Assembly: GCF_036250735.1 (NCBI RefSeq)
Contig: NZ_CP109431.1
Span: 62,001 to 126,000 of the forward strand
Length of the DNA stretch: 64,000 bases
DNA from: Streptosporangium sp. NBC_01495
GTDB taxonomy: Bacteria; Actinomycetota; Actinomycetes; Streptosporangiales; Streptosporangiaceae
Reading direction: 5' to 3'
The translations under genes and the position numbers were made by a program. Below the pieces are notes generated by a model, which was given only the letters and a program-made list of their open reading frames with translations, made no database searches and had not been told where the DNA came from. Position 1 is the first letter of the stretch. Each line of letters begins with the position of its first letter. Below are positions 7,690 to 33,775 of this stretch, piece after piece.

Positions 7690-8397
7690 ATGTTGATCAG
7701 CCTCGAAGGCCTCCCCGGATCCGGCAAAAGCACCCAGGCCGCCCTGCTGGCCGCGCACCTGCGCGCGAGCGGGCAAACGGTGGCGCACCTACCGGACCTG
7801 GCGACCCTGAACACCGACCCCCTCGGCGACGTCTTGTTCGACCTGTTCTCCTCCTGCGGCGATGTCTTCAAACGCCACGGCGATGTGATCACCGACACTC
7901 ACCTGGCCGCCGCGATCCGCGCCAACATCACCGCCACCCTCATCACCCCGGCGCTCGGCGACCACGACACCGTCATCGAAGACCGCGGCATCCACACCAT
8001 GTACTCCTACAGCCTGGCCTCCCTGCTGCACAACGAGCCACAGGACGGCGTCGACGGCGTCGAGGCCGTCATCGCCTGGCTCACCACCATCGGCTCTCTC
8101 ACCGGCCGTCAACCGGACCTGGCGATCTGGTTGCGACTCCCACCACCGCAGGCCATTCGGCGGGCTGTCGCTCGCGACGCCCGTCCCTTCACCGTGGAAC
8201 AACAGACCTACCTGCGCCACGTCGATACCGCCTATCGCGAACTGGCCGCCCGCGACGCCCGTTTGACCATCCTGGAGATCGACATCTCAGAATCGCCGCA
8301 GAGCGTCCACCAGCGCGTCTGTGCCGCCGTTCACGCCGCCAGCAGATCCTTACTCTCTGACACGGAAACCTCCTGCGCCCCCAGCGGCGCCCCGTAG
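7690..8397 (+). CDS. Thymidylate-kinase-like P-loop protein
   Basis: 235 aa. Walker A GLPGSGKST lies at residues 7-15, followed by a deoxynucleoside-kinase-like core with VIEDRGIHTMYSYS near residue 97-110 and a lid segment RAVARDARPFTVEQQ. Authentic Tmk has a DRY/DRYxxS motif at the same place; here it is EDRGIHTMYS, as in two paralogue-like genes at 26022 and 28859. It is therefore more likely a specialised nucleoside or nucleotide kinase than housekeeping dTMP kinase. CCACCT precedes the ATG with only a weak ribosome site. Confidence 0.75.
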   Translation: MLISLEGLPGSGKSTQAALLAAHLRASGQTVAHLPDLATLNTDPLGDVLFDLFSSCGDVFKRHGDVITDTHLAAAIRANITATLITPALGDHDTVIEDRGIHTMYSYSLASLLHNEPQDGVDGVEAVIAWLTTIGSLTGRQPDLAIWLRLPPPQAIRRAVARDARPFTVEQQTYLRHVDTAYRELAARDARLTILEIDISESPQSVHQRVCAAVHAASRSLLSDTETSCAPSGAP

Positions 8398-8451
8398 GCT
8401 GAGCTTTGCCTCATTGCCCGCACCGCACACCGCATCCCCTTTGGAGCCTTG

Positions 8452-9393
8452 ATGCGCGCCCAGCCTCCCACCGCACTGCTGTCCCAGCTGCGCGCAGCCC
8501 ACGCCACCGGCCCAGATCATGGAGCCCGCGCCGCCACGCAGTGGGGGATGCGTCCGCTCAGCGGAGGCCGTAACAACTTCGTCTACGGCTGGAGGGATCC
8601 GTCATCGGGCACCGAGATATGCATCAAGCTGTACAAGATCGACGAACGAAGACGCGCCGAGCGCGAATGGCACGCCCTTACCTTGGTGGCCGGCACGGGC
8701 ATCGAGGAGGTGCCCGCACCCGTGTGGTATGACCCCGCCGGACCCTATCCGGCGATCGCGATGACGCTGCTGCCCGGCGAGCCGCTCTCCGCCACCCATC
8801 TGCCTGAGACCCAGACACCGGCGCTGAAAGCCCTCGCCGCCCTGCACGGGCGCCTCACCGAGGTCCCTCTCACTGGCCTGCTCGCCGAGCTCCCCAGAAT
8901 CGACTCCGCCCCCCACTACATCACCCGGCTCACTCAGTTGTGGCCAGACCAGCTCGCCGACGCAGCAGATGAACCACTCACCGCCGACATGCTTGCCCTG
9001 CTGCGCATGTGGGAAGAATCAGGCGACCGGGAACTCCTGCTGAAACCCGCGCCTGCGGTGTTCAGCCGCGGAGACTCCAACCTGCTGAACTGGTTATGGG
9101 ACGGCGAAATTCGCTGCGTCGACTTCGAGTTCGCGGGTTACTCCGATACCGCGTTCGACGCCGCCGACCTTTGTGAGCACATCAGTGCCCGCGATATTGA
9201 CGACGAGGTCTGGGAAAGCCTGCATGCCGATCTGGGAATCACCGCAGCGCTGACGCCGCGTTTTCGGGCCGCGCAGCGCACCTGCGCACTGCGCTGGCTG
9301 GCTGTCCTGTGGCGTCAGCGATTTACTCGCGAACCCGAGTTCGCCACCCAGAAAGAACGCGCCCACCGTCTCCTACGGACGATCGGCTCATAG
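8452..9393 (+). CDS. APH/choline-kinase-fold phosphotransferase
   Basis: 313 aa; ATG 8452 is chosen over the adjacent TTG because TTGGAGCC lies at a good distance. Kinase features: GGRNNFVY in the glycine loop, CIKLYK with the ATP-binding Lys, and a catalytic loop FSRGDSNLLN (about 202-211) in which the usual His of HGDxxxxN is Arg, followed by CVDFEFAGYSDTAFDAADL with the metal-binding Asp. It ends the plus-strand run and converges on the glycosyltransferase at 9442. A decayed relative of its last third lies at 20039-20335. The substrate is unknown; small-molecule hydroxyls are typical. Confidence 0.8.
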   Translation: MRAQPPTALLSQLRAAHATGPDHGARAATQWGMRPLSGGRNNFVYGWRDPSSGTEICIKLYKIDERRRAEREWHALTLVAGTGIEEVPAPVWYDPAGPYPAIAMTLLPGEPLSATHLPETQTPALKALAALHGRLTEVPLTGLLAELPRIDSAPHYITRLTQLWPDQLADAADEPLTADMLALLRMWEESGDRELLLKPAPAVFSRGDSNLLNWLWDGEIRCVDFEFAGYSDTAFDAADLCEHISARDIDDEVWESLHADLGITAALTPRFRAAQRTCALRWLAVLWRQRFTREPEFATQKERAHRLLRTIGS

Positions 9394-20396: not shown

Positions 20397-21779
20397 TTAC
20401 GCGGCAGTTATACGCTCGCGTAGTTCCGCGATGACGGGTTCGACCGCATATGGTGCGGTCTCGGCGTATAGCTCGCCCAGCCGGTCACGGACCCGGGTGG
20501 AGGCGACCTCACATAGTAAGCCCAGCGCGGTCTCGGTGGCGGCGGCAGCCTCGTCAAGGTGACCCGCACCCAGGTAAGCGCGGCCCAGGGCGATGTGGTC
20601 GAAAGCTCGGCTGCGGGCGCGTTCCGGCGGGCGCCGGGCGGCCGCGTCAGCGATCATGGTGATGGCGGTGTCGGCATGGTGGGGCTGGTGGCACGCGGCG
20701 ATGGCGTGACATACCCCGAGGGTGGCGTCACACTCGGGCGCGTCGAAGAACGCGACCCAGGGCGGGTCGGTCTCCGGGCTGCTGTGGGCGAAGTCGTCAG
20801 CCGCTAGTCCGGCGGCTCGGTCGAATTCCCGCAGCCGCCCCATCTGGGCATAGCTGCGCGCTTCCAGGGCGTGCAGCATCGCGGTCATGGTGGGAGTGGC
20901 TGCCTGGCCGACCCCGTACAGGGCCAGCTGGACCAGGTTCAGAGCGTCGGCGGGCCGTTTGAGGTGGTTGGCCTGACGGGCCAGGCAGTTGAGGGCGTGG
21001 GCGCCGAGCGCGCGGTCGCCGGCTTCTTTCGCGGCGCGTAGGGCGAGCATCAGGTAGTGCTGGGCGTGGGTGTGCAGGCCGACGTCGTGGCTGGTCCATC
21101 CGGCCACGGTGGCCAGGTCGCCGGCGGCGGCGAACAAGGCCCGGCCGACGCTTTCGGTGTAGGAGGCCTCATTGAGCAGTCGGGTGACCGCACCCAGTTG
21201 TCCGATGATCGCTTCTCGGGCCAGCGCGCCGCCGGTGCGGTTGTCCAGCAGGCGGAAGTGTTCGGTGACCTCGCGTAGCTGTTCCACATCACGCATGCCG
21301 ACGGTGCGCGGGATGCGGCCCGGTCCGCTGATGGTGGCGGGGCCGCCGATGAGCCAGGGCTGCAGGGCTTGCAGCAGCTGAGTTCCGGTGAGGATGGCGT
21401 CGCTGCCCTCGGGGGTTGCGGGCGGGCTGGTTGACGGGCCGAGCATGAGGTCGCTCCTGGACAGATGGATAAGTTCTTCGATGGTAGATGCGGATGCCCA
21501 GGGCGAGCCGGGTGGCGCGGCGACGTCTGCTGCAGCCAGACCGAGGTCGGCCGCCGTCACCGGGCGGCCGGCGTGCTGGGTGAAGATCTCACACAACAGG
21601 TCGGGGACGGGCGGGCGGGGGTGTGCGCCGTTGCGCCAGTCGTGCACCCGCCGGGCATCGGGGGCAACCTGGTGATGTCCGCGGACTGGCGCGATAGCGC
21701 GCACAGTGCGGGCCAAGCTGGTGTTGGTGTAGCCGTAGCAGGTCATCCAGGCAGAAAGCCTGACGTTCGGGGTGCCCAA
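20397..21779 (-). CDS. XRE-like regulator with TPR-like region
   Basis: 460 aa from TTG 21779 (weakly supported start). The N terminus contains NVRLSAWMTCYGYTNTSLARTV and VHDWRNGAHPRPPVPDLLCEIF, matching the helix-turn-helix of actinobacterial regulators that have a long helical C terminus. The rest is TPR-like: ALGAHALNCLARQANHLKR, LHALEARSYAQMGRL, AFDHIALGRAYLGAGHLDEA. It is the last gene before the deazaguanine operon and is transcribed away from it, so it may regulate divergent transcription across the 21780-22629 interval. Confidence 0.8.
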   Translation of the reverse strand: MGTPNVRLSAWMTCYGYTNTSLARTVRAIAPVRGHHQVAPDARRVHDWRNGAHPRPPVPDLLCEIFTQHAGRPVTAADLGLAAADVAAPPGSPWASASTIEELIHLSRSDLMLGPSTSPPATPEGSDAILTGTQLLQALQPWLIGGPATISGPGRIPRTVGMRDVEQLREVTEHFRLLDNRTGGALAREAIIGQLGAVTRLLNEASYTESVGRALFAAAGDLATVAGWTSHDVGLHTHAQHYLMLALRAAKEAGDRALGAHALNCLARQANHLKRPADALNLVQLALYGVGQAATPTMTAMLHALEARSYAQMGRLREFDRAAGLAADDFAHSSPETDPPWVAFFDAPECDATLGVCHAIAACHQPHHADTAITMIADAAARRPPERARSRAFDHIALGRAYLGAGHLDEAAAATETALGLLCEVASTRVRDRLGELYAETAPYAVEPVIAELRERITAA

Positions 21780-22629: not shown

Positions 22630-23040
22630 ATGGATTTCCGTTCGGTGTCGCTCCCGTCCGGCACCTTCATCATCGGCAAGGCCTTCGATTTCGAGGCCGG
22701 GCACCGGCTGCCCGGCCTCCCGCCTGGGCACAAGTGCTCGCGGCAGCACGGACACAGCTATCAGGTCGAGGTCATCCTCACCGCCCCCGCCCTGCAGGCC
22801 CCGGGCTTCGTCACCGACTTCGGGGATCTCGCGCCGTTCAAGAAGTTCCTGGACGCCGAGCTCGACCACCACAACCTCCACGAGATCTTGCCCTTCGAGC
22901 CGACCTCGGAGCGCCTGGCCCAGTTCCTGGCCGGATGGTTCATCCAGAACGTCGAGCCGGAGATCCCCGGTCGGCTGGTCGCGGTCCGGGTCTGTGAGAC
23001 GCCGCGCAGCTGGGCTCGCTTCGAGGTGGAGCGGCGATGA
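22630..23040 (+). CDS. queD: 6-carboxy-5,6,7,8-tetrahydropterin synthase
   Basis: 136 aa from ATG 22630, with GAGGGGAAG upstream (a longer frame from 22582 adds an Arg/Pro-rich leader). Zinc ligands and catalytic residues are in place: FEAGH with H25, C36 in GHKCSRQHGHSY with H40 and H42, TDFGDL, LDHHNLHE with H80/H81 and PTSERLAQFL with E94. It converts dihydroneopterin triphosphate to CPH4, the second step of 7-deazaguanine synthesis. The stop overlaps the queE start (ATGA). Confidence 0.93.
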   Translation: MDFRSVSLPSGTFIIGKAFDFEAGHRLPGLPPGHKCSRQHGHSYQVEVILTAPALQAPGFVTDFGDLAPFKKFLDAELDHHNLHEILPFEPTSERLAQFLAGWFIQNVEPEIPGRLVAVRVCETPRSWARFEVERR

Positions 23041-23783
23041 GGTCCGCAGGCACCGGCGCGGGGACGCTCATCGGCGGCGATGAGGAGTTCCAGCTGATCG
23101 TCGCCGAACGCTTCGGTGTCGAGAAGCCGACCTTTCAAGGGGAGGGCCCCAGCTGCGGTGTCCCGGCCCTGTTCATCCGCTTGTCAAGGTGTAATTTAAC
23201 GTGTAGCTGGTGCGACACCACGTACACATGGGACTGGTCTCGCTTCGACCCGCGCACGGAGTCGACGCGACAGACGGTGGCCAACCTTCTGGCGTGGGCG
23301 CTCGGGTCGGCCGTGGAGTTGGTCGTCATCACCGGCGGCGAGCCGCTGATCCAGCAGCCGTCCCTGATCCCGCTGGTGCGAGGACTGCTGGCCGCAGGCA
23401 AGCGGGTGGAGGTCGAGACGAACGGCACCATCGCCCCCGATCCGGCGCTGCTGGTCGACGGAGTCTGCTTCAACGTCTCCCCCAAGCTCGCCAACTCCGA
23501 TGTCGAGCAGGACAGGCGGATCAAACCGGCCGCGCTGGAGGCGTTCGCCTCCAGCGGCCGGGCCGTGTTCAAGTTCGTCACCCGCACCGTGGCGGAGCTG
23601 GATGAGATCGGCGCCCTGGTGGAGCGGTACGGCCTGGATCCGGTGTACGTGATGCCCGAGGGCACCACACCGGAGGGCCTGATCGCGATCACCCGGGTGC
23701 TCGCGGACGCTGTCGCGGCCCGCCGCTGGCACCTCACCCAGCGCCTGCACGTCCTTGCGTTCACCGACAAGCGCGGACGCTGA
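23037..23783 (+). CDS. queE: 7-carboxy-7-deazaguanine synthase (radical SAM)
   Basis: 248 aa. QueE landmarks: TFQGEGPSCGVPALFIRL (32-49), the cluster motif C52-NLT-C56-SW-C59-D, VVITGGEPL near 95-103, VEVETNGT and FNVSPKLANSD. It ring-contracts CPH4 to 7-carboxy-7-deazaguanine (CDG) using SAM and Mg2+. It is ATGA-coupled to queD and followed after 58 bases by folE. QueC, which would turn CDG into preQ0, is not found anywhere in the window. Confidence 0.93.
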   Translation: MRSAGTGAGTLIGGDEEFQLIVAERFGVEKPTFQGEGPSCGVPALFIRLSRCNLTCSWCDTTYTWDWSRFDPRTESTRQTVANLLAWALGSAVELVVITGGEPLIQQPSLIPLVRGLLAAGKRVEVETNGTIAPDPALLVDGVCFNVSPKLANSDVEQDRRIKPAALEAFASSGRAVFKFVTRTVAELDEIGALVERYGLDPVYVMPEGTTPEGLIAITRVLADAVAARRWHLTQRLHVLAFTDKRGR

Positions 23784-23841
23784 CCCGCCCCGTCCTTGCT
23801 CACCCCCTGTTTCCCCAGTTCCTGGATGCGAGGCGCAGTTC

Positions 23842-24489
23842 ATGACCCACACCCTCTACAACCCGGCGCCTGGTGAGAGCACGGCCCTGCCGCCGCAGGC
23901 CGGCCCTGCCGCGCCGAGACCGGTCGATGCCGAGCGCGTCGCTGATCTGATCGGCCAACTCCTAACCGCGCTCGGCGAGGACCCCGCCCGGAAAGGATTG
24001 GCGGGCACACCGGCTCGCGTCGCGGCCTGGTGGCGCGACTTCCTGACGCCGGACCCCTCGGCGATGGCGACGTGCTTCACCGAGACCCACGCCAGTGACC
24101 AGCTGGTCGTGGTCGGAGGACTGAACGTGTGGTCGCTGTGTGAGCACCACATGCTGCCCATGAAGCTGGACGCGCACGTCGGCTACCTCGCTGACGGCAC
24201 TGTCTTGGGGCTGTCGAAGTTCGGTCGGATCGCGCAGCGCTACGCCGGGCGCCTCCAGGTGCAGGAGCGCTTCACCCGCCAGCTCGCCGACGAGGTAGCC
24301 GCAGCCATCGGCCACCAGGACGTGGCCGTCACGGTGCACGGCGAGCACCTGTGCATGAGCATGCGCGGCGTCCGGATGGAGAGGGCCCGCACATCCACCG
24401 TGCAGGCCGGCGGACGGCTCAAGACTGATCCGCTGCTCTCCCAGCAGTTCCTCACCCTCACCACCGCCGACCAGCGGGGGACAGCGTGA
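23842..24489 (+). CDS. folE: GTP cyclohydrolase I
   Basis: 215 aa from ATG 23842. Zinc ligands C100, H103 and C171 lie in SLCEHHMLPM and HGEHLCMSMRGV; other family blocks are LGLSKFGRIAQRYAGRLQVQE and MERARTSTVQAGG. It supplies dihydroneopterin triphosphate from GTP, the first step of both folate and 7-deazaguanine synthesis. Its position directly after queD and queE indicates a dedicated copy for the deazaguanine pathway, as in toyocamycin and related clusters. Confidence 0.93.
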   Translation: MTHTLYNPAPGESTALPPQAGPAAPRPVDAERVADLIGQLLTALGEDPARKGLAGTPARVAAWWRDFLTPDPSAMATCFTETHASDQLVVVGGLNVWSLCEHHMLPMKLDAHVGYLADGTVLGLSKFGRIAQRYAGRLQVQERFTRQLADEVAAAIGHQDVAVTVHGEHLCMSMRGVRMERARTSTVQAGGRLKTDPLLSQQFLTLTTADQRGTA

Positions 24490-24623
24490 TGACGCCCAGC
24501 CCCTCAGCGGTGGCGGCTTCCACCGTCCCCAGCGCCTGCACGTACCGGCGTTCGCCGACGCCCGCGGACGAGGACCACCGCTGGTCAATACCCCGAGGGT
24601 CACCAGGAAGCGAGGCACTTTTC

Positions 24624-25211
24624 ATGGCCGACGCATCACCCCCGCACAGCGCCGTTTCCGAACTGCATGCCGCCGCAGTCCTGCCGGCGACGGCGACTGG
24701 GAGCGGCAATCGAGAGGTCACGGTCACGCACCTGGCGTGGCCTCGATTGGAAGAGCTGGTCAGCCAGATCGCCGAGGCGATAAGAGATGACGGTGCTCCC
24801 CAGACCCTGGTAGCAGTCCTGCGCGGTGGTGGCATACCGGCCGTCTGGCTCTCCCACAAACTCCGGCTGCGAGATGTCCGGGGGGTCGAGGTAACCCACA
24901 CCGCCGACGACAGCACCAACGCCGCGAAGACCCCGCAGCCAGTGGCCATCAACCCGGCCTCGCTGGGCGACCTCACCGGCCGAGACGTCCTGATCGTCGA
25001 CGACGTCGCCGGCACCGGACACACCCTCGCCGCCGCGGCGCGACTGGCCGCCGACGCAGGAGCCAGCCGGGTTCGGACCGCGGTGTGCGTGGTGAACGAG
25101 GACAACTGGACCGGCCGCCCCCCAGCTGAGGCTGCCGTCACCTATATCGGCACGATCACCCACGGGTGGGTGGTCTTCCCCTGGGAGGGCAACGATGAGC
25201 ACGAGCACTGA
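24624..25211 (+). CDS. Purine-type phosphoribosyltransferase
   Basis: 195 aa from ATG 24624 (AGGAAGCGAGG upstream); a GTG at 24486 overlapping the folE stop would add 46 unstructured residues. PRTase hallmarks: VLRGGG (66-71, PPi loop) and LIVDDVAGTGHTL (123-135, PRPP-binding acidic pair). Downstream VVFPWE resembles gpt/ToyH-type enzymes. In toyocamycin biosynthesis a PRTase adds ribose-5-phosphate to preQ0; with QueC missing here, CDG is the likely acceptor. It overlaps the methyltransferase by 17 bases. Confidence 0.85.
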   Translation: MADASPPHSAVSELHAAAVLPATATGSGNREVTVTHLAWPRLEELVSQIAEAIRDDGAPQTLVAVLRGGGIPAVWLSHKLRLRDVRGVEVTHTADDSTNAAKTPQPVAINPASLGDLTGRDVLIVDDVAGTGHTLAAAARLAADAGASRVRTAVCVVNEDNWTGRPPAEAAVTYIGTITHGWVVFPWEGNDEHEH

Positions 25212-26025
25212 TCAGCTTCCCGAGCAGTTTCGCACCCGGCCCGAGACTCCGATGATCGGCCCGTACAGCACCAACCAGATGGATGACTTCTACGCGGCGC
25301 TGCACCGCGGGGAGGTTAAGGCATCGGGGCTGATGAACCTGATGCAGCACCTCATCGTCGCCGAGCGGTGCGCGCCGGGCGCGAAGGTGCTGGACGTGTG
25401 CTGCGGCCGCGGGCTGGCGCTGCCGCTGCTGCGCCGGTACATGCCGGAGATCGAACGCTACGTTGGGCTGGACATCAGCTCCGACAACTTGAACGAGGCC
25501 CGAGAGCGGATCGCGTTCTTGCGCGAGACCTACGAAGGAGGGCTCTTCCCGGTCGAGCTCGTCGAGTGCGATGTGGCCAAGCCCTGGCCGCCGCTACCTG
25601 CTTTCGACGTGGCGCTGTACACCTCGGCGCTGGAGCACCTGCCCTTCGAACTCGGTGTGCGCAGCCTGCGCAGCACGGCTCAAGCACTCGCGCCCGGCGG
25701 GGTGCTGTTGCTGTCCACACCGCAGGGGTTCGGGCCACCGCCGCGGCCTCTGCAGTACCGCGTCCACGTCTATGAGTGGTCGCGGCAGGAGGTGGAGCAC
25801 GTCGTCGGCGAGGCGGGCCTAGTCGTCGAGGACGTGATGGGCTTATTGTCGCCTGAGCCGGACGTGGTGGCCGATGAGCTCACCGAACGGTACGGGCGGG
25901 GCGCGGCCGACTGGTACCGTGACCTGACCGCGCGCGTCCCGGGGGCGCTGCTGAACACGGTCTCGGCGGTGTCGGTACCGATGAGGGCGACCGAGCTGCT
26001 GTATGTGTGCCGGAGGCCTGCGTGA
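25195..26025 (+). CDS. Class I SAM-dependent methyltransferase
   Basis: 276 aa. Motif I KVLDVCCGRGLALPLLRR near 63-80, acidic end of beta2 in YVGLDISSDN, VECDVAKPW and FDVALYTSALEHLPF, then the beta5 region ALAPGGVLLLSTPQGFG. The C-terminal 80 residues are less typical. It is embedded in the deazaguanine operon, so O- or N-methylation of the nucleoside or of an attached group is inferred. Confidence 0.85.
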   Translation: MSTSTDQLPEQFRTRPETPMIGPYSTNQMDDFYAALHRGEVKASGLMNLMQHLIVAERCAPGAKVLDVCCGRGLALPLLRRYMPEIERYVGLDISSDNLNEARERIAFLRETYEGGLFPVELVECDVAKPWPPLPAFDVALYTSALEHLPFELGVRSLRSTAQALAPGGVLLLSTPQGFGPPPRPLQYRVHVYEWSRQEVEHVVGEAGLVVEDVMGLLSPEPDVVADELTERYGRGAADWYRDLTARVPGALLNTVSAVSVPMRATELLYVCRRPA

Positions 26026-26738
26026 GTGCCGCCGCCCTCCCCGCCCCGAGCCGCGGGCCCGTCCCTGCCCGGCCGCTGTGGGTGAGCGTCGAGGGCATCA
26101 ACGGCGTCGGAAAAACCACCGTGGCCCGAGCGCTCGCCGCCTGGCTTGGCGAGCGGTGCCTGCTGCTGGCCGAACTCACCGACCAGCCCGGCGACACCCT
26201 GCCCGGACGTGTGATCTCCGCCTTGGCCGCGAACGACGACGTGTGTCTGCGCACCGGGCACCCGGTCGTCGAGACGTTGGCCCTGCTCGCGCTGAAGGTC
26301 CGCGAAGTCGAACGCCTCGCAGCCTACCCGGCTACGTGCCAGGTGGTCATCGAGGACCGCGGCATCGACACCGTCGCCGTCTGCCAGGCCGCGATCTTGT
26401 GCGCGCAGGTGCCGGACGCCGATCCTGCGCACGTCGCGCGGCACGTGCTCTCCTCGGTGTCGCGGTGGCTGCCCCTGCCCGACGCCACCGTCTTGCTGAC
26501 CGGCGACCGGGAGGTGTGCATGCGGCGCTTCGCCGAACGGATCGGGCGGACGCTGGCGCCACAAGACCTGCGGGTGATCGAGCAGGCCGCCGCGCTCTAC
26601 ACCGGGCTGGCCGCCGCTGAGCCCCACCGCTACACCGTGATCGACACCGCCGGGCGATCTGCTGAGGCTGTCGCCGACGCGGTGGGCGCGCTCGTGCAAG
26701 ACCTCGTGAAGCAACGGGAGGCTGATTATGGCGCGTGA
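26022..26738 (+). CDS. Thymidylate-kinase-like protein 1 of the deazaguanine operon
   Basis: 238 aa from GTG 26022 (GTGA overlap). Walker A EGINGVGKTT at 24-33, VVIEDRGIDTVAVCQAAIL near 108-127, and a lid-like stretch FAERIGRTLAPQDLR. It is clearly related to the protein at 28859 (shared VEGI-GVGKT, VIE-R--DT-AVCQA, PLPD-T-L-T-D, ALY--LAA--P-RY--ID). Canonical dTMP kinase residues around DRY are replaced, so a specialised nucleoside or nucleotide substrate is likely. Confidence 0.8.
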   Translation: MSAAALPAPSRGPVPARPLWVSVEGINGVGKTTVARALAAWLGERCLLLAELTDQPGDTLPGRVISALAANDDVCLRTGHPVVETLALLALKVREVERLAAYPATCQVVIEDRGIDTVAVCQAAILCAQVPDADPAHVARHVLSSVSRWLPLPDATVLLTGDREVCMRRFAERIGRTLAPQDLRVIEQAAALYTGLAAAEPHRYTVIDTAGRSAEAVADAVGALVQDLVKQREADYGA

Positions 26739-27765
26739 TGTGACTCTGCTCTGGGGGCTTCGCTCGCCGTGTGGGTTCGCCTGCCCGCACTGCTACTTCG
26801 GCACGATCGAGGAGCACAAGCAGGCCCTGCCCAGCGAGGCCGGTGTCTTGTCGCACCTGTCGCGCACCGACCTGCCGCCCCGGGCGCTCAAAGCGTTCGC
26901 ACAGACCCTGGCCGGCTCACCGATCGAGCGGGTGGTCATCGCCGGCGGCGAACCGCTGGACTGGCCCCCCACCATGGAGGTGATCAAAATCATCAAGGAG
27001 GCCGGCTGCCAGGTCGTGATCGCTACCAACGGGATTGCGCTCACTCGCCCGCCGGTGGTCGAACGGCTCATCGCGCTCGGTGTCGACGGCGTTTCGGTCT
27101 CCCTGGACAGTGCGGACGCGCAGACCAACGACCGGCTGCGCCCTTCGCGCTCAGGCCGTTTCGGCTACGACGATGTCCTGGCCGGTATCGGCGCCCTGCT
27201 GGCCGCCCGAGGCGACCGGCACGCGCTGCGGGTGGGGATCTACACCGTGGTGATGCGAGAACGCCCACAGGAGATCACCGACATGGCTCATCTGGCCCAG
27301 GAGCTCGGCGTGGACTACTACGTCCCCCAGCCGATCTCCCTGGCGCCCGAGCACACGCTGTTTGAGAAGCTGACCCACCGCCGCGAAGACGTGCAGGCCG
27401 TGGCCGAGCAACTGGATCGTCTCTATGACGAGCCGGGCAGGGTGGCGCTGCCGGACCTCTCCTACGCGCGGCGTTTTGTCACCGCGATCTCCACTCAAGC
27501 CAGCGGGCAGGTGCCCGACTGCTTCGGTGGCGCCCGCCTGTTCTTCATCCAGCCCGACGGCTCGGTCTGGGACTGCCCGTCCGACCGCCGGATCGCCGCC
27601 ACCGCCCCCGAGCAGCGCCGCACCATCCGCGGCGGTGACGCGCGCACGCTTTTCGCGGCGAGGCCCGCGTGCACGAACTGCTCGCTGTTCAGCCGGGACT
27701 GCGTGAACATGTGGCCGCTCGTGCTGGACATGCCGCGGCTGCTGAACGCGGAGGCCATCCAATGA
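26728..27765 (+). CDS. Radical SAM protein with SPASM-like C terminus
   Basis: 345 aa, start overlapping the previous gene by 11 bases. The [4Fe-4S]/SAM motif is C15-GFA-C19-PH-C22-Y; GGEPLDW, VIATNG and VSLDSADAQTNDRLR follow as in PqqE/MoaA-like enzymes. The C terminus carries further cysteines in CFGGARLFFIQPDGSVWDC and CTNCSLFSRDC, the pattern of auxiliary-cluster (SPASM or twitch) proteins. Such enzymes oxidise, epimerise or crosslink substrates. No precursor peptide is evident, so a small-molecule substrate such as the sugar or an amino alcohol is favoured. Confidence 0.88.
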   Translation: MARDVTLLWGLRSPCGFACPHCYFGTIEEHKQALPSEAGVLSHLSRTDLPPRALKAFAQTLAGSPIERVVIAGGEPLDWPPTMEVIKIIKEAGCQVVIATNGIALTRPPVVERLIALGVDGVSVSLDSADAQTNDRLRPSRSGRFGYDDVLAGIGALLAARGDRHALRVGIYTVVMRERPQEITDMAHLAQELGVDYYVPQPISLAPEHTLFEKLTHRREDVQAVAEQLDRLYDEPGRVALPDLSYARRFVTAISTQASGQVPDCFGGARLFFIQPDGSVWDCPSDRRIAATAPEQRRTIRGGDARTLFAARPACTNCSLFSRDCVNMWPLVLDMPRLLNAEAIQ

Positions 27766-28871
27766 CCCTGCCTGCACTCCCCGGCGGTGCACAGCTGCTC
27801 GCAGATCAGCTCGCCGTCGCGCTCGAGCAGATGCCCGACCCGGGCGGCGGCCCGGCCGCCGCACACCTGGAGCGCGAGTTGGCCGAGGCGTTCGGCGTCC
27901 CATACGCCGTCGCGGTCGCCTCCGGCACCGCGGCCCTGCACGCCGCGCTGTCGGCCTGCGGTGTCGGCCCCGGCGACGAAGTCCTCGTGCCGGCGCTGAC
28001 CGTCGTCATGACCGTGGCGCCCCTGGGAGCCCTCGGGGCAACACCGGTGTTCATCGACAGCGACCCGGCCACCTTGGACCTGGACTACGACGACGCGGCC
28101 CGCAAGGTCACCGCACGGACCCGGGCGATCATCCCGGTGCACCTGTGGGGCCGGATGGGAGACCCGGCGGCCCTGGCGGTGTTCGCATCCGAGCACGGGC
28201 TCGCCGTCATCGAGGACGCCGCCCAAGCCGCCGGTACCGCGCGCGACGGGCAGCGAGCCGGCACGGCCGGCACCGTCGGCTGCCTCAGCATGAAGGACGG
28301 CAAGATCCTGTGGAGCGGCGAGGGCGGCTTTCTGCTCACCGCCCGCCGCGAGATAGCAGAGCACGCGGCCGCGTTCCGCAGCCACTGGCAGCCGGCTCCT
28401 CCCGGTGAGGCCCCGCTGAGCCGCCTGGCAACCAACTCTCGCCTGGCTGCCCCCCTCGCCGCGATCGCCCTGGCCAACCTCCGCCGCCTGGCAAGCCTGG
28501 TGCAACTGCGCCGCGCACAGACCCGCCACCTGCTGCACGCGCTGGAGCAGACACCCGGCCTCCTCGCCCTCACAGCGGCTACCCGCGAGGAATGGAACGG
28601 CTTCGCCCCCCTCCTTCACATCGATCTGCCGAACCCCCGGGCGTTCGCCGAACACCTCGCGCAGCAGGCAGTGCCGAACTCCACCGGCAGCTTCCGGCTC
28701 ATTCCCTGCGACGCCCGGCCCATGTTCATCGGCCGCGACCAGCCGTGCCGCGGCGCCGCCCAGATCCTCGACCACACGCTCGCCGTCATCCTCACCGAAC
28801 GCGACACCGAGACCACACTTGACCGCTACGCCGCCGTCATCGCCACAGAGGCCACCGCATGGGCCACGTAA
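27762..28871 (+). CDS. DegT/DnrJ/EryC1/StrS-type PLP aminotransferase
   Basis: 369 aa from ATG 27762 (ATGA overlap). Family features: FGVPYAVAVASGTAALHAAL, GPGDEVLVPALTVVMTVAP, PVHLWGRMGDP, IEDAAQAAG and the PLP-binding region SMKDGKILWSGEGGFL, in which K181 stands four residues before GEGG as expected for the Schiff-base Lys. These enzymes transaminate keto-sugars or keto-cyclitols. Together with the radical SAM protein immediately upstream it could oxidise and then aminate a hydroxyl, as in BtrN-type dehydrogenation followed by transamination. Confidence 0.9.
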   Translation: MTLPALPGGAQLLADQLAVALEQMPDPGGGPAAAHLERELAEAFGVPYAVAVASGTAALHAALSACGVGPGDEVLVPALTVVMTVAPLGALGATPVFIDSDPATLDLDYDDAARKVTARTRAIIPVHLWGRMGDPAALAVFASEHGLAVIEDAAQAAGTARDGQRAGTAGTVGCLSMKDGKILWSGEGGFLLTARREIAEHAAAFRSHWQPAPPGEAPLSRLATNSRLAAPLAAIALANLRRLASLVQLRRAQTRHLLHALEQTPGLLALTAATREEWNGFAPLLHIDLPNPRAFAEHLAQQAVPNSTGSFRLIPCDARPMFIGRDQPCRGAAQILDHTLAVILTERDTETTLDRYAAVIATEATAWAT

Positions 28872-29704
28872 CCGATGACTCGCACCGCAACGGCCCCTCT
28901 GGCGGTGCCCGCTCCTCGCCCCTGAACGGATCCTGCCGCATGACGATCACACCGGTACGCCCTTGCACCCGTGGCCCGCTGATCTCCGTCGAAGGCATCA
29001 CCGGAGTCGGCAAGACGTATCTGACCAACCGCGCCGTCGAAGTCCTCGACGACAAGCCACTGAAGCTCGAGGGGTTCTCCCAGCGGGAGAGCGGGCGCCC
29101 GGGACTGGGCGAAGCCCTGCTGTGCTCCCTGCGCGAAGCCAGCGCAGGGCACCCGTTCCTACACGGGGGCACCCCCATCGCCGAGGCTCTGATCCTGCTG
29201 GCCATCAAACGGTATGACCTGGACACCGTCATCGCCGAGCTGTCCAGCGGGCGAGCCGTCATCGAGGGCCGCAGCGTGGACACCACAGCGGTGTGCCAGG
29301 CATTGCTGCTACACCCCGACGCCCCGGACGCTGCCCTTGAGACGGCAACCGCCCTGCGGGAATTCGCGTCCTCCTACCGGCCCCTTCCCGACCTCACCAT
29401 CCTGGTCACCGACGACGCCGTCGAGGCCGTCGAGCGCGCGCAACGGCGCGATCGGCGCGTCTTCACGACCGAGCAGGCCACGTTCATGCGTGAGGCGTGC
29501 GCGCTTTATGAGCGGCTCGCCGCCACCGATCCGGCACGCTACCGAGTCGTGGACCGGCGCAACGTCGGTGAGCACGAGGCGGCCGAGCTGATCCAGGCGT
29601 GGATCAGCGCTGCCAGGACCGGCCTGGGCTGCGTGCGCGAGCCGTGGCAGGGCCCAAAAGCCCGGTGCATGTACTGCGGCCGCGCGGAATCGGCGCCGGC
29701 ATGA
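28859..29704 (+). CDS. Thymidylate-kinase-like protein 2 of the deazaguanine operon
   Basis: 281 aa; start 28859 overlaps the aminotransferase by 13 bases, while ATG 28940 is a plausible shorter start. Walker A EGITGVGKT at 45-53, AVIEGRSVDTTAVCQALLL, lid RAQRRDRRVFTTEQ. Paralogue of the 26022 protein. The C terminus ends in a small CMYCGRAESAPA tail with a CxxC. Two related kinases in one operon suggest consecutive phosphorylations or two different acceptors. Confidence 0.78.
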   Translation: MGHVTDDSHRNGPSGGARSSPLNGSCRMTITPVRPCTRGPLISVEGITGVGKTYLTNRAVEVLDDKPLKLEGFSQRESGRPGLGEALLCSLREASAGHPFLHGGTPIAEALILLAIKRYDLDTVIAELSSGRAVIEGRSVDTTAVCQALLLHPDAPDAALETATALREFASSYRPLPDLTILVTDDAVEAVERAQRRDRRVFTTEQATFMREACALYERLAATDPARYRVVDRRNVGEHEAAELIQAWISAARTGLGCVREPWQGPKARCMYCGRAESAPA

Positions 29705-30456
29705 ACGAGGCGGCCCATCCCTCGATCTGCCGGAGCCCGGCTTCAGCGAGAAGCTGCACACCTACCGTCCCCGACGGCATCGAGGCTCTCCTGCTCGACT
29801 TCGACGGAACCCTCGCCGACACGACGCCCGGCCATGAGCAGGCTCTGCGAGCGGCGCTGCAGCCACACGGCCTCGACCTGGACCACGACTGGTATAGCCG
29901 ACACGTCGGCCTGTCCATCCACGATCTGCTGGCCACGCTACCGGGCGGCCGGCAGCTGCCTCACGCCCAGATCATCCAACAGAGCCGAACCCACCTGCTG
30001 GCAGGTGTGCACAGCATCACCCCCATCGCATGCGTCGTCTGGCTCTTGCACGCCGCACGCCGTGCTGGACTGCCCTGCGCCGTGGCCTCAGGCGCCAGCC
30101 GACTTCTCGTCCATCCCGGCCTCGACGCTCTGGGCCTGAGGCGGGAGTTCGCCGCCGTCGTCACGCGAGAAGACGTCACGCATGGCAAGCCGGCCCCCGA
30201 CCTGTACCTCGCGGCTGCCCGCCGCCTCGACGTCGCGCCGCAGGGCTGCCTCGCCGTCGACGACGCTCCTGAGGGCATCACCGCCGCCCGCGCCGCCGGC
30301 ATGCACGTAATCACGGTGGCCGACGGCCACCTGGCCCTCACCGACGAAGACGCTGGGGAAGCCGCACGCCACTTCGCTTCAAGCGCCGGGGCATCGACGC
30401 AGCCCGCCACGGCAGGCCCGGGCCCGGGTCCGCGAGACGGCGGCCGCACCGCATGA
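29701..30456 (+). CDS. HAD-superfamily phosphatase
   Basis: 251 aa, ATGA-coupled. Motif I LLLDFDGTLADT has both Asp residues (D33, D35); motif II VASGAS, motif III Lys in HGKPAPDLYLAAARRL and motif IV CLAVDDAPEGITAARAAG. This is the beta-phosphoglucomutase/phosphoglycolate-phosphatase subgroup with a helical cap. In this operon it is a good candidate for removing the 5'-phosphate of the deazaguanine ribotide. The last 40 residues are disordered. Confidence 0.87.
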   Translation: MNEAAHPSICRSPASARSCTPTVPDGIEALLLDFDGTLADTTPGHEQALRAALQPHGLDLDHDWYSRHVGLSIHDLLATLPGGRQLPHAQIIQQSRTHLLAGVHSITPIACVVWLLHAARRAGLPCAVASGASRLLVHPGLDALGLRREFAAVVTREDVTHGKPAPDLYLAAARRLDVAPQGCLAVDDAPEGITAARAAGMHVITVADGHLALTDEDAGEAARHFASSAGASTQPATAGPGPGPRDGGRTA

Positions 30457-30536
30457 CGCTGCCCCAGCCGCCACACCGCCACGATCAGCAAATCCCGCCA
30501 AATGACGGCGTGAGGCCGTCGCGCCAGGAGAGCATG

Positions 30537-31502
30537 ATGCCCGTCCTCCACTCGACCAAGAACCTGCAGATCATCGAACCTCCCACGACCACGAGGGAGG
30601 GCGTCGGAACCTTCGAGTACACCGACAACTACACGGTGTTTCACTACGGCAGGATGCCGGACCTGATCCCCGGGAAAGGTGAGGCGATCTGCCGCATGGC
30701 CGTCTTCAACTTCACGATGTTGGAGGCAGCGGGCGTTCGAACCCATTTCCGCCGGTTCATCGCCCCGAATCGAATCGAGTTCGATCTCGCGCGTGTCCCG
30801 GACCCGGACGCTGGGCCACTCCCCCCGGGCGCGGGAAACTACCTCATTCCCGTACAAGTCCTCTTCCGCAACGAGCTCCCTCAAGGAAGCTCCGTTCACC
30901 GCCGACTCGCAGCCGGCACGCTGACCCTGAGCGAGATCGGGCTCGACGCCATTCCCGCGGTCGGCGAGAAGCTGCCCCATCCGCTCATCGAGTACGCCAC
31001 GATGCTGGAAGAGGTCAACCGGTTCATCGGCGGGCCCGAGGCCCAGCGCCTCGCCGCTCTGAGCGACGAGCAGTTCCAGGCGATGCGCGACACCACCATC
31101 ACGGTCAACGAGGTGCTGACCGGGCACGCACACGAGCTCGGGCTGAACCACTGCGACGGCAAGCTCGAGTTCCTGGTGTCGAGCGACGCGCGCATCGTGC
31201 TTGCCGACAGTCCCGGGACACCTGACGAAAGCCGCCTGATGTTCAACGCAGTGCACTGCGGCAAGCAGGTCCTCCGCAACTGGTACGCAGACAATGGGCT
31301 CGAGATGCCCATCAGCAAACTGATCGCCGAGGGCGTGCCCAGGAGCCAGTGGTCGCAGCCGACACCCCTGCCGCCCGAGTTCTTGCCGGTGATGTCGGAC
31401 CTGTACCGGTCCCTGAGCGAGACCTGGACGGGCGAGCGCCTCTGGAACGCGCCGGACCTACCGGCCGCCACGCAGGCCGTTGCCCGCCTCATCGGTCAAT
31501 AA
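30537..31502 (+). CDS. SAICAR synthetase (PurC) homologue
   Basis: 321 aa from ATG 30537 after CCAGGAG; ATG 30453 (ATGA overlap with the HAD gene) and ATG 30534 are alternatives. PurC landmarks: EYTDNYTVFHYGRMPDLIPG (27-46), KGEAICRMAVFNF, signature IPVQVLFRNELPQGSS (104-119), LNHCDGKLEFLV and IVLADSPGTPDESR. PurC joins the carboxylate of CAIR to aspartate using ATP. CDG ribotide is a close structural mimic of CAIR (five-membered-ring carboxylate on ribose-5-phosphate), so amide formation at the deazaguanine carboxylate is an attractive inference. Confidence 0.88.
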   Translation: MPVLHSTKNLQIIEPPTTTREGVGTFEYTDNYTVFHYGRMPDLIPGKGEAICRMAVFNFTMLEAAGVRTHFRRFIAPNRIEFDLARVPDPDAGPLPPGAGNYLIPVQVLFRNELPQGSSVHRRLAAGTLTLSEIGLDAIPAVGEKLPHPLIEYATMLEEVNRFIGGPEAQRLAALSDEQFQAMRDTTITVNEVLTGHAHELGLNHCDGKLEFLVSSDARIVLADSPGTPDESRLMFNAVHCGKQVLRNWYADNGLEMPISKLIAEGVPRSQWSQPTPLPPEFLPVMSDLYRSLSETWTGERLWNAPDLPAATQAVARLIGQ

Positions 31503-31593: not shown

Positions 31594-32292
31594 ATGGGTG
31601 GCTTGACACAAGACCCCGCCTTCCTGGCGACGACGTTCGTGGTCATCGACTTCGAGGCGACGACCCCCACCGGCTACCCGGCCCAGCCCATCGAGGTCGC
31701 CGCTCTGGCACTTCGCTACGAGAAAAGCGCGTGGACAGTGGTCGGCAGGAGCGCCTCTCTCATCCGGCCGCCCGCGTTCGCTCCGGTGACGCCAGCCGTT
31801 ACAGCCCAAACCGGCCTGACCCCCGAGCAGGTCAAGCAAGCCCCTGATCCGGCCGAAGCACTGGGCGCACTGGATCGGCGATTCACGGCCGACAAACGGT
31901 ACCTGCTGGTGGCTCAACACGCCGCCACCGAGGCCAACCTAATCCACAACCAGCGCAAGCACTGCCCAGCCCTGGCCCGCGTTGACCTTCTTGACACGAT
32001 TCCGCTGGCCAAACACCTCGTCCCAGGTCTGGCGAACTACAAACTCGACACGCTGCTGGCGCATTTCGCCATCACGCAGCCGGCAGATCGCCACCGGGCC
32101 TGCGCCGACGTCGAGGTCACCGCGCAAGTGTTCTTCCGGCTCATCAGCGCCGCGGACGAGGATGTTCAGCTCAGCGATCTCGCGGCCCTGGTGAAAATCG
32201 CGGGGCGCACGGCCAAGTGCAACATGCCCACCCAAGGTGGCTTGTTCGACATCCAGCCTTCCGACGGAGAAAGCGCATACGAACCGGTTTGA
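31594..32292 (+). CDS. DnaQ-like 3'-5' exonuclease
   Basis: 232 aa from ATG 31594 (GGTGGG upstream). DEDDh pattern: VVIDFEATTPTG with D19 and E21, a middle segment LVAQHAATEANLI where the usual NxxFD Asp is replaced or shifted, and HRACADVEVTAQVF with His and Asp. The C-terminal 50 residues are unassigned. It probably cleaves single-stranded DNA or RNA. Ninety bases separate it from the PurC homologue; whether it belongs to the pathway is doubtful. Confidence 0.75.
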   Translation: MGGLTQDPAFLATTFVVIDFEATTPTGYPAQPIEVAALALRYEKSAWTVVGRSASLIRPPAFAPVTPAVTAQTGLTPEQVKQAPDPAEALGALDRRFTADKRYLLVAQHAATEANLIHNQRKHCPALARVDLLDTIPLAKHLVPGLANYKLDTLLAHFAITQPADRHRACADVEVTAQVFFRLISAADEDVQLSDLAALVKIAGRTAKCNMPTQGGLFDIQPSDGESAYEPV

Positions 32293-32313
32293 GTTAGGAC
32301 GGTGCTCATTTTG

Positions 32314-32961
32314 ATGATCACGGAACAGACAGAATTGTTGGACCGCGACGAGGTCCCCTTCTGGTTCGATCCGCTGTGCCCCTGGGCATGGATCACCTCG
32401 CGTTGGCTCTTGGAGGTCGAGCAGGTTCGGCCGGTGCGCGCCGACTGGCGGATCATGTCGCTGGCCTACCTGAACCTCATCCAGCGCGAGGGCAAGGGAC
32501 TCAGCGAGGACTACCGGGACCTGATGACGAAGGCCTGGGGGCCGGTGCGGGTCTGCGCGGCGGCCGCTGAGCACGGTGGCCGCGCCATCCTCGGACCGCT
32601 GTACACCGCCATCGGCACCCGGTTTCACACCCAAAGACGTCGCGACGATCCCAGCGTGATCACCGAAGCTCTCGCAGAAGCGAGCCTGCCTGATTCGCTG
32701 GCCGCAGCCGCCACAAGCGCGGAGTTCGATCAGCTCATCAAAACCTCGCACGACGAGGCGTTCAACGAAGTCGGCCTCGATGTCGGGACGCCCGTTCTCC
32801 GCATCGGCGGCACGGCCCTGTTCGGCCCCGTGCTCAGGCAGGCCCCCCGCGGTGAAGCTGCCGGACGGCTCTGGGACGGCCTGGTCATAGTCGCCGGCAC
32901 GGACGGCTTCTTCGAGCTCAAGCGGAGCCGGGACCGGACCGTCAAACCGTCCTTTGCGTGA
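32314..32961 (+). CDS. DsbA-fold reductase of the mycothiol-dependent Rv2466c type
   Basis: 215 aa from ATG 32314 (a GTG at 32302 is an alternative). The N terminus FWFDPLCPWAWITSRWLLEV corresponds to the CPWC region of the Mycobacterium Rv2466c reductase, but the second Cys is Ala here (C22-P-W-A25). AWGPVRV, LGPLYTAIG, DVGTPVLRIGGTALFGPV and FFELKR also match that family. Mycothiol-linked proteins support an actinobacterial host. A monothiol mechanism is implied. It may protect against, or chemically modify, a pathway product. Confidence 0.85.
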   Translation: MITEQTELLDRDEVPFWFDPLCPWAWITSRWLLEVEQVRPVRADWRIMSLAYLNLIQREGKGLSEDYRDLMTKAWGPVRVCAAAAEHGGRAILGPLYTAIGTRFHTQRRRDDPSVITEALAEASLPDSLAAAATSAEFDQLIKTSHDEAFNEVGLDVGTPVLRIGGTALFGPVLRQAPRGEAAGRLWDGLVIVAGTDGFFELKRSRDRTVKPSFA

Positions 32962-33113: not shown

Positions 33114-33671
33114 TCAGCCGATCCGGGCCGGTGCGCTGACCGCTCGCGCAATGCGATGACCGACAAGGCGCTCAGCCTCGGCGAGCGGGTACCAGGCGGC
33201 ACCCTTCACCTCAGACTCCTGGATGCGCCCCACGTCCGCATCGGTCACGAAGGAGTATCCGAAGTCGAGATGGTGATGCTCCGGTTCGTTCTTCTCCGCT
33301 CGTGCCGGAACCCTGCCGTACTCGATGTAGACGGGGGTTTGTGACGTTGAAACGATCTTGTTGAGGTCCACACCGGTTTCCTCCGTCAACTCGCGTACTG
33401 CCGCGTCGATCAGTGTGGTGTCGCTCGGCTCGAGGTGACCTCCAGGCTGCAACGGGATCCCGTACGCGAGGTGCTCGACAAGCAGAATCTCGGCGTCACC
33501 GCGGACCAGGAGCGCACCGACAGTCACGTGCATCCGAAAATTCCGCCGCGAGGCGAAACCCCCTCCCTGAGACAGCAATTGCACCGGCTCAGATAGCAGC
33601 GCCGCCTCCTCTGGGTAGCGCTTGAGGTAGGCCGAAAGCGCGCCCAGGATGTCTGCGTCACTGATCGCCAC
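33114..33671 (-). CDS. Nudix hydrolase
   Basis: 185 aa from GTG 33671, which has GGGGGTGTC upstream; the frame can extend to 33734. Nudix box GGHLEPSDTTLIDAAVREL then TEETGV is complete. The flanking FRMHVTVGALLV and HHHLDFGYSFV fit the fold, and an N-terminal helical region SDADILGALSAYLKRYPEEAALL resembles that of NTP-pyrophosphohydrolase Nudix proteins in actinobacteria. It ends next to an intergenic stretch and is convergent with the DsbA-like gene. Confidence 0.85.
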   Translation of the reverse strand: MAISDADILGALSAYLKRYPEEAALLSEPVQLLSQGGGFASRRNFRMHVTVGALLVRGDAEILLVEHLAYGIPLQPGGHLEPSDTTLIDAAVRELTEETGVDLNKIVSTSQTPVYIEYGRVPARAEKNEPEHHHLDFGYSFVTDADVGRIQESEVKGAAWYPLAEAERLVGHRIARAVSAPARIG

Positions 33672-33775
33672 GAGACACCCCCACACCAGCGCGAGAGCAA
33701 AGTTCTCCGTGACCAACTGCTTGGAGGTGAGCAACGAGCCCTGACACAGTCAGCTCCTTAGAAAGTGCGTGGCGT

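Follow-up and report, generated by a model that had tools for sequence, protein, structure and literature searches.

A QueC-free 7-deazaguanine operon with a PurC-like ligase and a putative sugar module on a plasmid-sized replicon of Streptosporangium sp. NBC_01495

The genome of Streptosporangium sp. NBC_01495 comprises 11.1 Mb in two contigs (C1 and C2). The stretch of 64,000 bases analyzed here, referred to as the window, is located at C2:62001-126000 and contains an operon for 7-deazaguanine metabolism (Table 1). C2 has a length of 358,303 bases and, as a separate contig of this size in a two-contig assembly, is called a plasmid-sized replicon. An earlier note on this DNA, made without database searches, described eleven genes between 22630 and 31502, from queD to a purC homologue. 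A check of the reading frames and the Pfam matches confirmed their place and families, and all eleven are intact, tightly packed open frames. Overlaps of 4 to 19 bases are possible at 8 of the 10 junctions. With a later start codon, three of them (Tmk1, Tmk2, PurC) shrink or vanish, and no overlap exists at the queE/folE and folE/phosphoribosyltransferase (PRTase) junctions. The extent had been set too short. Conservation among relatives continues past 31502 with an exonuclease, an Rv2466c-like protein and a convergent NUDIX hydrolase, so that the unit is a 14-gene operon ending at 33734, counting the convergent NUDIX gene.

Table 1. Features of the operon and its surroundings in window coordinates, with the best supporting matches.
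Feature	Position	Strand	Evidence
queD-like, 6-carboxytetrahydropterin synthase	22630..23040	+	PF01242 1.8e-28
queE	23037..23783	+	Radical_SAM; TIGR03365 8.7e-26, under that model's cut-off; CNL.C..CD conserved
folE, GTP cyclohydrolase I	23842..24489	+	PF01227 5.8e-50
Type I phosphoribosyltransferase, proposed CDG:PRPP transferase	24624..25211	+	PF00156 4.3e-19
SAM-dependent methyltransferase, family MT	25195..26025	+	PF13489 3.6e-13
Tmk-like kinase 1	26007..26738 (GTG 26007 or 26022)	+	PF02223 1.1e-12; P-loop conserved
Radical SAM enzyme, putative twitch-type auxiliary cluster	26728..27765	+	PF04055 5.4e-19; nearest BlsE
DegT-family aminotransferase	27762..28871	+	PF01041 3.5e-68; PLP lysine region KDGK...EGG conserved
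Tmk-like kinase 2	28859..29704 (ATG 28859 or 28940)	+	PF02223 2.6e-10
HAD phosphatase	29701..30456	+	PF13419 4.1e-28
PurC/SAICAR-synthetase-like ligase	30453..31502 (ATG 30453, or 30534/30537 after AGGAGAG)	+	PF01259 3.3e-22
DEDDh 3'-5' exonuclease	31594..32292	+	PF00929 2.4e-18; PADLOC DEDDh model 7.5e-21
Rv2466c/DsbA-like protein, active-site motif CPWA	32302..32961	+	PF22234 5.6e-82
Convergent NUDIX hydrolase	33114..33734	-	PF00293 2.4e-15
Possible divergent regulator upstream (weak assignment)	20397..21779	-	no Pfam family
QueC-like gene, 3' end; second deazaguanine cluster, outside the studied operon	1..121	+	
Remainder of the second (type C) cluster	183..9372	+	Pfam for part; syntenic with Amycolatopsis sp. 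AA4 plasmid
CDG, 7-carboxy-7-deazaguanine; PRPP, phosphoribosyl pyrophosphate; SAM, S-adenosylmethionine; PLP, pyridoxal phosphate.

The PurC-like protein is distributed sporadically. Of 200 genomes from the same family, 2 gave matches with E <= 1e-20, and of 394 genomes from the class, 3 gave matches with E <= 1e-15, the own genome included in both cases. A scan of GTDB contigs yielded 148 PurC relatives, the best 80 of which were retained. Among these 80, 25 loci (L024-L048) have a PurC identity of at least 59% and belong to Nonomuraea, Kibdelosporangium, Kitasatospora, Frankia, Streptomyces, Nocardia, Paractinoplanes, Nocardiopsis, Streptacidiphilus, Kineosporia, Microlunatus, Actinomadura and Amycolatopsis as well as to a Streptomycetaceae metagenome-assembled genome (MAG). 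Furthermore, the operon is present in six plasmid records (Streptomyces sp. NBC_00582, Streptomyces sp. FR1 pFRL3, S. alboflavus, S. globisporus, Kitasatospora and Micromonospora), and two further loci (L145, L147) were reached via the PRTase. The operon is known from more than a dozen other actinobacterial genera, which is a lower bound, since the related loci result from genome, plasmid and GTDB-contig searches. The 33 loci counted in the following (6 plasmid, 27 genome), termed type A, include close relatives and are therefore not 33 independent cases. Outside these counts are L005-L007, which are short, the loci with more distant PurCs, and L016, on a seventh plasmid from Nonomuraea sp. 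NBC_00507, which contains only an end fragment of PurC and the exonuclease gene (L016:14001-15024).

The content of the loci was determined by tblastn (1e-8, at least 40% of the query) in stretches of 12-33 kb each, some of them cut by contig ends. The operon is nearly whole in 32 of 33 loci, and L043 holds only its 3' end (PurC-exonuclease-Dsb-NUDIX). In detail, queD was found in 31 loci (using as query the queD of the operon or that of a second cluster described below), queE in 32, folE in 29, Tmk1, the radical SAM gene, degT and Tmk2 in 32 each, the HAD gene in 31, the exonuclease in all 33, the Rv2466c-like gene in 32 and NUDIX in 31. The two loci without NUDIX (L024, L147) end short of its place, and L026 ends before queD. 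PurC is present in 33 of 33 loci, 31 of which were found through it. One of two PRTase families occurs in 32 loci, namely PRT in 27, five of which also weakly cross-match PRT2 at 35-37%, and PRT2 alone in five (L010, L028, L031, L044, L047). Similarly, one of two methyltransferase families occurs in 32 loci (MT in 21, MT2 in 11, never together), and MT2 is located after the Rv2466c-like gene in the annotated loci L008, L009 and L011. L043 is the only locus lacking both families of both enzymes. These interchangeable families suggest two chemotypes. Exceptions to the gene order are queD-queE located downstream in L047, folE located elsewhere in L039 and L040, Tmk1 after degT in L040, a second exonuclease copy in L048 and no visible folE in L046 and L048; otherwise the order is constant. 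Its recurrence in plasmid records and genomes across many actinobacterial genera argues against a chance arrangement.

The earlier note had proposed that the pathway stops at CDG, owing to a missing queC. In agreement with this, QueC was found in none of the 33 loci within the stretches analyzed, using three queries (the QueC-like protein of this replicon, a toyocamycin-type QueC and that of G574) and a filter of 30% of the query. With the same filter, tblastn detected no GMP reductase, UbiD, PurA or beta-ribofuranosylaminobenzene 5'-phosphate (beta-RFAP) synthase in the window or the 33 loci, which also bears out the note's statement on GMP reductase; the sole match of the query set in the 33 loci is a 54-residue NUDIX match in L009. 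As positive controls, the GMP reductase (GMPR), UbiD, PurA and QueC queries match in loci labeled here tub-type or toy-type by gene content, with identities confirmed by Pfam. For the beta-RFAP synthase query, the name comes from the RefSeq record, and Pfam shows a GHMP-kinase-type domain. Nitrile hydratase is absent from the families listed for the operon proteins (Pfam, 13 plus-strand proteins; NCBIfam, 10), no dedicated search having been made. In the 25 whole genomes of L024-L048, PF06508 exceeds the cut-off in 13. One of these has a full-length QueC (G574, Kineosporia) and one a QueC-like protein (G579, a MAG); in the other 11, frames of 400-703 aa match no further than model position 76 and probably represent other PP-loop enzymes. 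The tRNA-guanine transglycosylase (TGT) family PF01702 occurs in 2 of these 25 genomes and has no match anywhere in the own genome, which extends the note's statement on TGT beyond the window.

The search of the whole genome for queC, as suggested earlier, resulted in a single PF06508 match (C2:61741-61953), which lies outside the operon. The QueC-like gene concerned (C2:61423-62121) spans the left edge of the window, starting 578 bases outside and ending at window position 121, 22.5 kb upstream of the operon on the same replicon. Its product reaches 38.5 bits with the Pfam QueC model over residues 109-177 and 58.2 bits with that of PADLOC. Directly 5' of it are further copies of queD and queE together with a gene for a Tmk-like kinase. 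As this set stands apart from the operon, C2 carries two deazaguanine clusters. The second cluster covers C2:59428-62121 (L002:13428-16100 and on), continues to about window position 9372 and is syntenic with a plasmid of Amycolatopsis sp. AA4 (37-68% identity). Within the window, it encodes a nucleoside deoxyribosyltransferase (NDT), a TIM barrel protein, an Rpe-like and a HAD protein, two hypothetical proteins, a nucleotidyltransferase, an AAA kinase, an IMPase-like and an APH/Tmk-like protein. In the MAG of L026, queE and Tmk adjoin a QueC-like gene of 70% identity. The absence of QueC thus holds for the operon and its 33 relatives, but a QueC-like gene is present at the window edge. A queC and tgt pair just outside the window had been named as evidence against the earlier interpretation; one half of it exists, but within a separate conserved cluster and without TGT. 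The only PDB sequence relative of the QueC-like protein (L001:1183-1881) at E 0.01 is Cap9 (9nto), a protein linked to CBASS. The QueE proteins at L002:13844-14569 and L146:8160-8918 contain CX3CX9C instead of CX3CX2C, with an insertion in the cluster loop.

Three further arrangements share parts with the operon. Type C (L021 and the second cluster of this replicon) has queD-queE(-folE) in common with it, but encodes a QueC-like protein. Five Streptomyces plasmid records contain a QueC-like gene and, about 10 kb further, a radical SAM gene 45-46% like that of the operon. From three of these, all Streptomyces linear plasmids (L020, L022, L023), type B was described: queD-queE-folE, an adenylation-peptidyl carrier (A-PCP) protein, HAD, a 685-aa protein without Pfam family, PRTase and the QueC-like gene, followed far downstream by a radical SAM-DegT-HAD trio at 45-48%, whose radical SAM motif is CX4CX2C in L020 and L022. 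Type B therefore resembles the operon in queD-queE(-folE), PRTase, radical SAM, DegT and HAD, and differs in the QueC-like protein and the A-PCP protein, which is of the nonribosomal peptide synthetase type. No PurC-like ligase was found in the analyzed stretches of type B and type C clusters. The third arrangement (L146/L148) has the order queD-queE-PRT-MT-Tmk-rSAM-DegT-exonuclease-Tmk-HAD (rSAM, radical SAM), and neither PurC nor the Rv2466c-like gene was found at 1e-3 in the 23 kb analyzed. Since radical SAM and DegT genes occur in type B and L146/L148 without PurC, the putative sugar module is more widely spread than the ligase.

An independent PRTase search in 392 Streptomyces-group genomes (threshold 1e-12) gave matches in 21, of which 4 were operon-bearing genomes already known. 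Among the other 17, the PRTase gene is located beside queD-queE-folE in 12 (28-39% identity), in type A loci in 2 and in the PurC-less form in 1, and 2 (L140, L144) have no CDG genes nearby. Six of the seven genomes with the closest PRTases have a PurC gene at the same place. L133 combines IMPDH/GMPR (385 aa), PRTase, UbiD, Nudix (168 aa) and a PfkB kinase, which corresponds to the published tub architecture, and L131 contains GMPR, PurA, PRTase and QueC. Because the operon's PRTase is akin to these tubercidin- and toyocamycin-type enzymes and QueC is missing, ribosylation of CDG itself is the natural reading, as the earlier note had suggested. The reaction as such is not new: for tubercidin, TubE was shown to use CDG and PRPP, not deazaguanine (PMC6112128). 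The novelty lies in the PurC-like enzyme and the putative sugar module.

The PurC-like protein, already recognized in the earlier note and indeed characteristic of the operon, is a clear SAICAR synthetase homologue (PF01259, 79.8 bits versus a cut-off of 20), and a canonical purC copy is present elsewhere in the genome (C1:8228418). A maximum likelihood tree, drawn with a midpoint root, was built from 28 sequences, of which 11 are type A, 8 are from other bacteria, 8 are archaeal and one is canonical. The type A PurCs are monophyletic in it (100/100); Lentzea L049 is their sister (95/91), and both belong to a bacterial group (97/100). A beta-RFAP synthase homologue is encoded near all 8 other bacterial sequences. 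Judged by the sequences, the ligase nests among the PurCs of formycin/pyrazofurin-like C-nucleoside loci; as the branch of the canonical sequence is very long and rooting was at the midpoint, this nesting presupposes an outside position of the archaea. A phage origin was rejected: PurC matches occur in 5 phage records and are partial, at 24-28%. A formycin/pyrazofurin-like locus with PurC, PurH and beta-RFAP synthase was also observed in Alphaproteobacteria, on plasmids of Lotus-associated Mesorhizobium and Aminobacter (L012, L013).

In human PAICS (PMC9376930), aspartate is contacted by T40, K191, K228 and R232 and ATP by K19, N43 and K131, while E97 and D137 are ligands of a magnesium ion that also binds the carboxylate and ring N3 of carboxyaminoimidazole ribonucleotide (CAIR). 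The equivalent positions were compared in 34 type A rows and 18 outgroup rows (9 of C-nucleoside type, 8 archaeal, 1 canonical). The aspartate contacts are kept in type A: T40 as T/S in 34/34, K191 in 33/34 (T in L047), K228 and R232 in 34/34. The DxKxE motif, except for that lysine of L047, and the equivalents of D207, D212 and R215 are kept as well. K131 is replaced by M (18) or T (16) in type A and is K in 18/18 outgroup rows; D137 is N in 34/34 type A rows and D in 18/18 outgroup rows. At the E97 position, 33 of the 34 type A rows have Q and one has H; the residue is Q in 9/9 rows of C-nucleoside type, and E in archaea and the canonical row. N43 is H in 34/34, H (4) or D (5) in C-nucleoside type and D elsewhere. 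The protein belongs to the SAICAR synthetase family by fold, but by this motif-based mapping lacks the magnesium-binding Asp and Glu and the ATP-contacting Lys of that enzyme. As both ring atoms flanking the carboxyl-bearing carbon of 7-deazaguanine are carbon, a ring nitrogen as magnesium ligand, as in CAIR, does not exist, and the changed metal site may be a fit to this ring.

The radical SAM enzyme contains a CX3CX2C motif (C15/C19/C22) and, in its C-terminal part, C265/C283/C318/C325 in the pattern CX12GX4C...C...C, all invariant in 16 rows; we take this pattern to resemble that of twitch domains. BlsE of blasticidin S biosynthesis is its only PDB sequence relative at E 0.001 (two chains) and its best fold match (E 8.6e-12, 20% identity), with DesII third and viperins from rank 30. 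The predicted model used for this has a mean pLDDT of 79.6, falling below 50 in the SAM-cluster loop (residues 13-29) and at residues 40-46, so that the fold match is supportive only. Viperin identity was rejected: the match to pVip (63.6 bits) covers only the core (residues 9-182), the C-terminal part carries cysteines of its own, and NF038283 reaches 51.4 bits against a cut-off of 180. In blasticidin S biosynthesis, an aminotransferase follows BlsE, and BtrN and BtrS oxidize a sugar carbon and then transaminate it. Solved relatives of the DegT protein include 2-deoxy-scyllo-inosose aminotransferases. Oxidation of a sugar carbon followed by its transamination would be the simplest reading of the radical SAM and DegT pair. 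In puromycin biosynthesis, kinases convert the nucleotide into the substrate form of the sugar enzymes, and by analogy the Tmk-like kinases could do so here.

The exonuclease is well conserved, with distant homologues in type B (28%) and in the PurC-less form (42%). A part in the biosynthesis is not apparent, and we therefore propose that it protects the host once an analogue has been incorporated. The Rv2466c-like protein carries a CPWA motif, largely conserved in relatives, at the site where Rv2466c has CPWC, and may be a one-cysteine enzyme.

With regard to known systems, the operon resembles in its first part the tubercidin cluster, which likewise has queD-queE-folE and a PRTase but no QueC (PMC6112128). 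The tubercidin cluster also encodes a GMP reductase and a UbiD decarboxylase, to which removal of the carboxyl group has been ascribed as a proposal. Both are found in L133 and L134, but neither in the operon, which instead has PurC, radical SAM, DegT, kinases and exonuclease. Toyocamycin/sangivamycin clusters share queD-queE-folE and a related PRTase, whereas the toy-type loci L131 and L132 carry QueC, PurA and GMPR, none of which was found in the operon and its 33 relatives. The huimycin cluster has the CDG genes and a methyltransferase in common with the operon, but contains QueC and a glycosyltransferase and, among huiA-G (PMC7439116), no PRTase or PurC; no glycosyltransferase was found among the Pfam matches of the operon proteins. 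The nearest PurC relatives are found in loci of the pyrazofurin/formycin kind, and the pyrazofurin enzyme PrfC has as its target a carboxylate on the ring of a ribotide (PMC8724604). The operon differs from them by its lack of beta-RFAP synthase, a presumed N-glycosidic deazaguanine and the changed K131 and D137 equivalents. BlsE, although nearest to the radical SAM enzyme by sequence and fold and part of a nucleoside-antibiotic pathway, shares only about 20% identity and acts on another base in another pathway. For the TGT-family base exchange of queuosine or dpd DNA-modification pathways, PF01702 gave no match in the own genome. By gene content, the operon falls outside the tub, toy, hui and C-nucleoside families, with predicted first steps like those of tubercidin. 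Of the clusters proposed for comparison, those of huimycin and toyocamycin differ by QueC. Cadeguomycin was rejected as the product, since most operon genes would presumably be unnecessary for so simple a compound.

Starting from the established gene content, order and conservation, the QueC-free loci and the ancestry and residue changes of the PurC-like protein, we propose that the operon makes a 7-deazaguanosine antimetabolite from CDG, the ribotide being amidated at its carboxylate and the sugar aminated. Our confidence in this is evenly balanced, the reactions, their order and the product being deduced from sequence. FolE, QueD and QueE would convert GTP to CDG, which the PRTase would join to PRPP. 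The PurC-like enzyme would activate the 7-carboxylate of the CDG ribotide with ATP and form an amide, for which aspartate or a different amino dicarboxylate is the likeliest partner. The radical SAM enzyme would oxidize (or dehydrate) a sugar carbon and DegT would aminate the same carbon, while the two kinases and the HAD phosphatase would set the phosphorylation state and the methyltransferase would add one methyl group. The exonuclease and NUDIX would shield the host from the nucleotide. From the earlier interpretation, the CDG endpoint, the ribosylation and the ligase remain; the wider extent, the BlsE-like/DegT module, the second cluster and the origin and active site of PurC had been missed. 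A more specific version is tentative and on balance unlikely: an amino-sugar 7-deazaguanosine with its 7-carboxyl amide-linked to an amino acid, made by a ligase of C-nucleoside lineage whose metal site was changed for a ring without adjacent nitrogen. The triphosphate of this nucleoside would end DNA or RNA chains, and the DEDDh exonuclease would trim it out, a proofreading-type self-immunity.

Several observations weigh against the proposed pathway. The loss of the ATP-contacting lysine and the magnesium ligands could mean a different reaction, and the human PAICS numbering was mapped via motifs and canonical PurC alignments, the human protein itself not being aligned. As shown by the PurC-less L146/L148, the wider family has members that do without the ligase, and its presence in 33/33 loci results by construction from loci mostly found via PurC. 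No beta-RFAP synthase was found in the 3.7-16 kb stretches around three bacterial MAG PurCs of 30-35% identity outside the tree (L060, L086, L097). With BlsE only a distant relative, the radical SAM reaction could also be a dehydration, epimerization or decarboxylation. Finally, no exporter is located within the conserved core.

Two alternatives concern the ligase. It could add aspartate to the CDG ribotide, with PurB of the host removing fumarate, so that a plain carboxamide, 7-amido-7-deazaguanosine with a modified sugar, would arise without QueC. The amidation of the pyrazole carboxylate of a ribotide by PrfC and PrfB in pyrazofurin biosynthesis (PMC8724604) provides a precedent, and the retained aspartate-binding residues and the ancestry among C-nucleoside-type loci fit equally; but the four annotated plasmid relatives L008-L011 show no adenylosuccinate-lyase-like gene up to 16 kb from PurC (an incomplete gene table, without a direct search), so that PurB would have to be borrowed, and we consider this outcome unlikely, though not strongly so. 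Rather improbable is that the enzyme does not act on the CDG carboxylate at all, having turned into a kinase or joining another acid, which would leave the 7-carboxylate free as in a cadeguomycin-like base. The changes at D137, K131, E97 and N43 in 34/34 rows and the PurC-less relative would agree with this, but the aspartate contacts, DxKxE, D207, D212 and R215 are kept (K191 with one exception), and PurC recurs at the same place in most genomes with the closest PRTases.

The remaining alternatives place the operon in another context. Since a QueC-like gene lies on the same replicon, and the MAG of L026 combines a type A operon with at least queE-Tmk-QueC of a type C-like cluster, QueC might act in trans from the neighboring cluster and the true base be preQ0 or its amide; given 0/33 loci with QueC and only one full-length and one QueC-like gene in 25 genomes, this appears very improbable. 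A role in nucleic-acid modification or anti-phage defence, with a viperin-like nucleotide or deazaguanine in DNA or RNA instead of a secreted metabolite, is suggested by the pVip-like radical SAM core, the kinases, exonuclease and NUDIX and the plasmid location of several relatives. It is nevertheless quite improbable, as TGT is lacking in the own genome and in 23/25 others, and as the pVip match ends before the separate cysteine-bearing C-terminal part.

Searches of the open-licence literature listed no paper on this cluster; the subscription literature was outside their scope, so that novelty in print is not established. If the proposed pathway is true, CDG would be a branch point at which amide ligation by a purine-pathway enzyme constitutes a third fate beside decarboxylation (tubercidin) and nitrile formation (toyocamycin, huimycin), and one recruited ligase would tie together the worlds of C-nucleoside and 7-deazapurine antibiotics. 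It would also define a widely spread nucleoside family, with a genome-mining signature easy to spot in more than a dozen genera, specific PurC residues to test and a testable kind of self-resistance.

Regarding the surroundings, a comparison of the outer 12 kb stretches of C2 revealed no terminal inverted repeats, and a linear-plasmid status is therefore unsupported. In G142 of the same genus, the PurC gene is located on a 4.9 Mb contig. Frames similar to the possible upstream regulator occur directly 5' of queD in L014, L015 and L031 (27-29%) and in the type B loci L020 and L022 (23-26%); other relatives have an XRE or deformylase-annotated gene at this place, with an HTH domain in L008. At window positions 16113-18147, a SIS-domain gene adjoins a BtpA-family gene, and BtpA homologues are also encoded in the C-nucleoside-type PurC loci L012 and L059.

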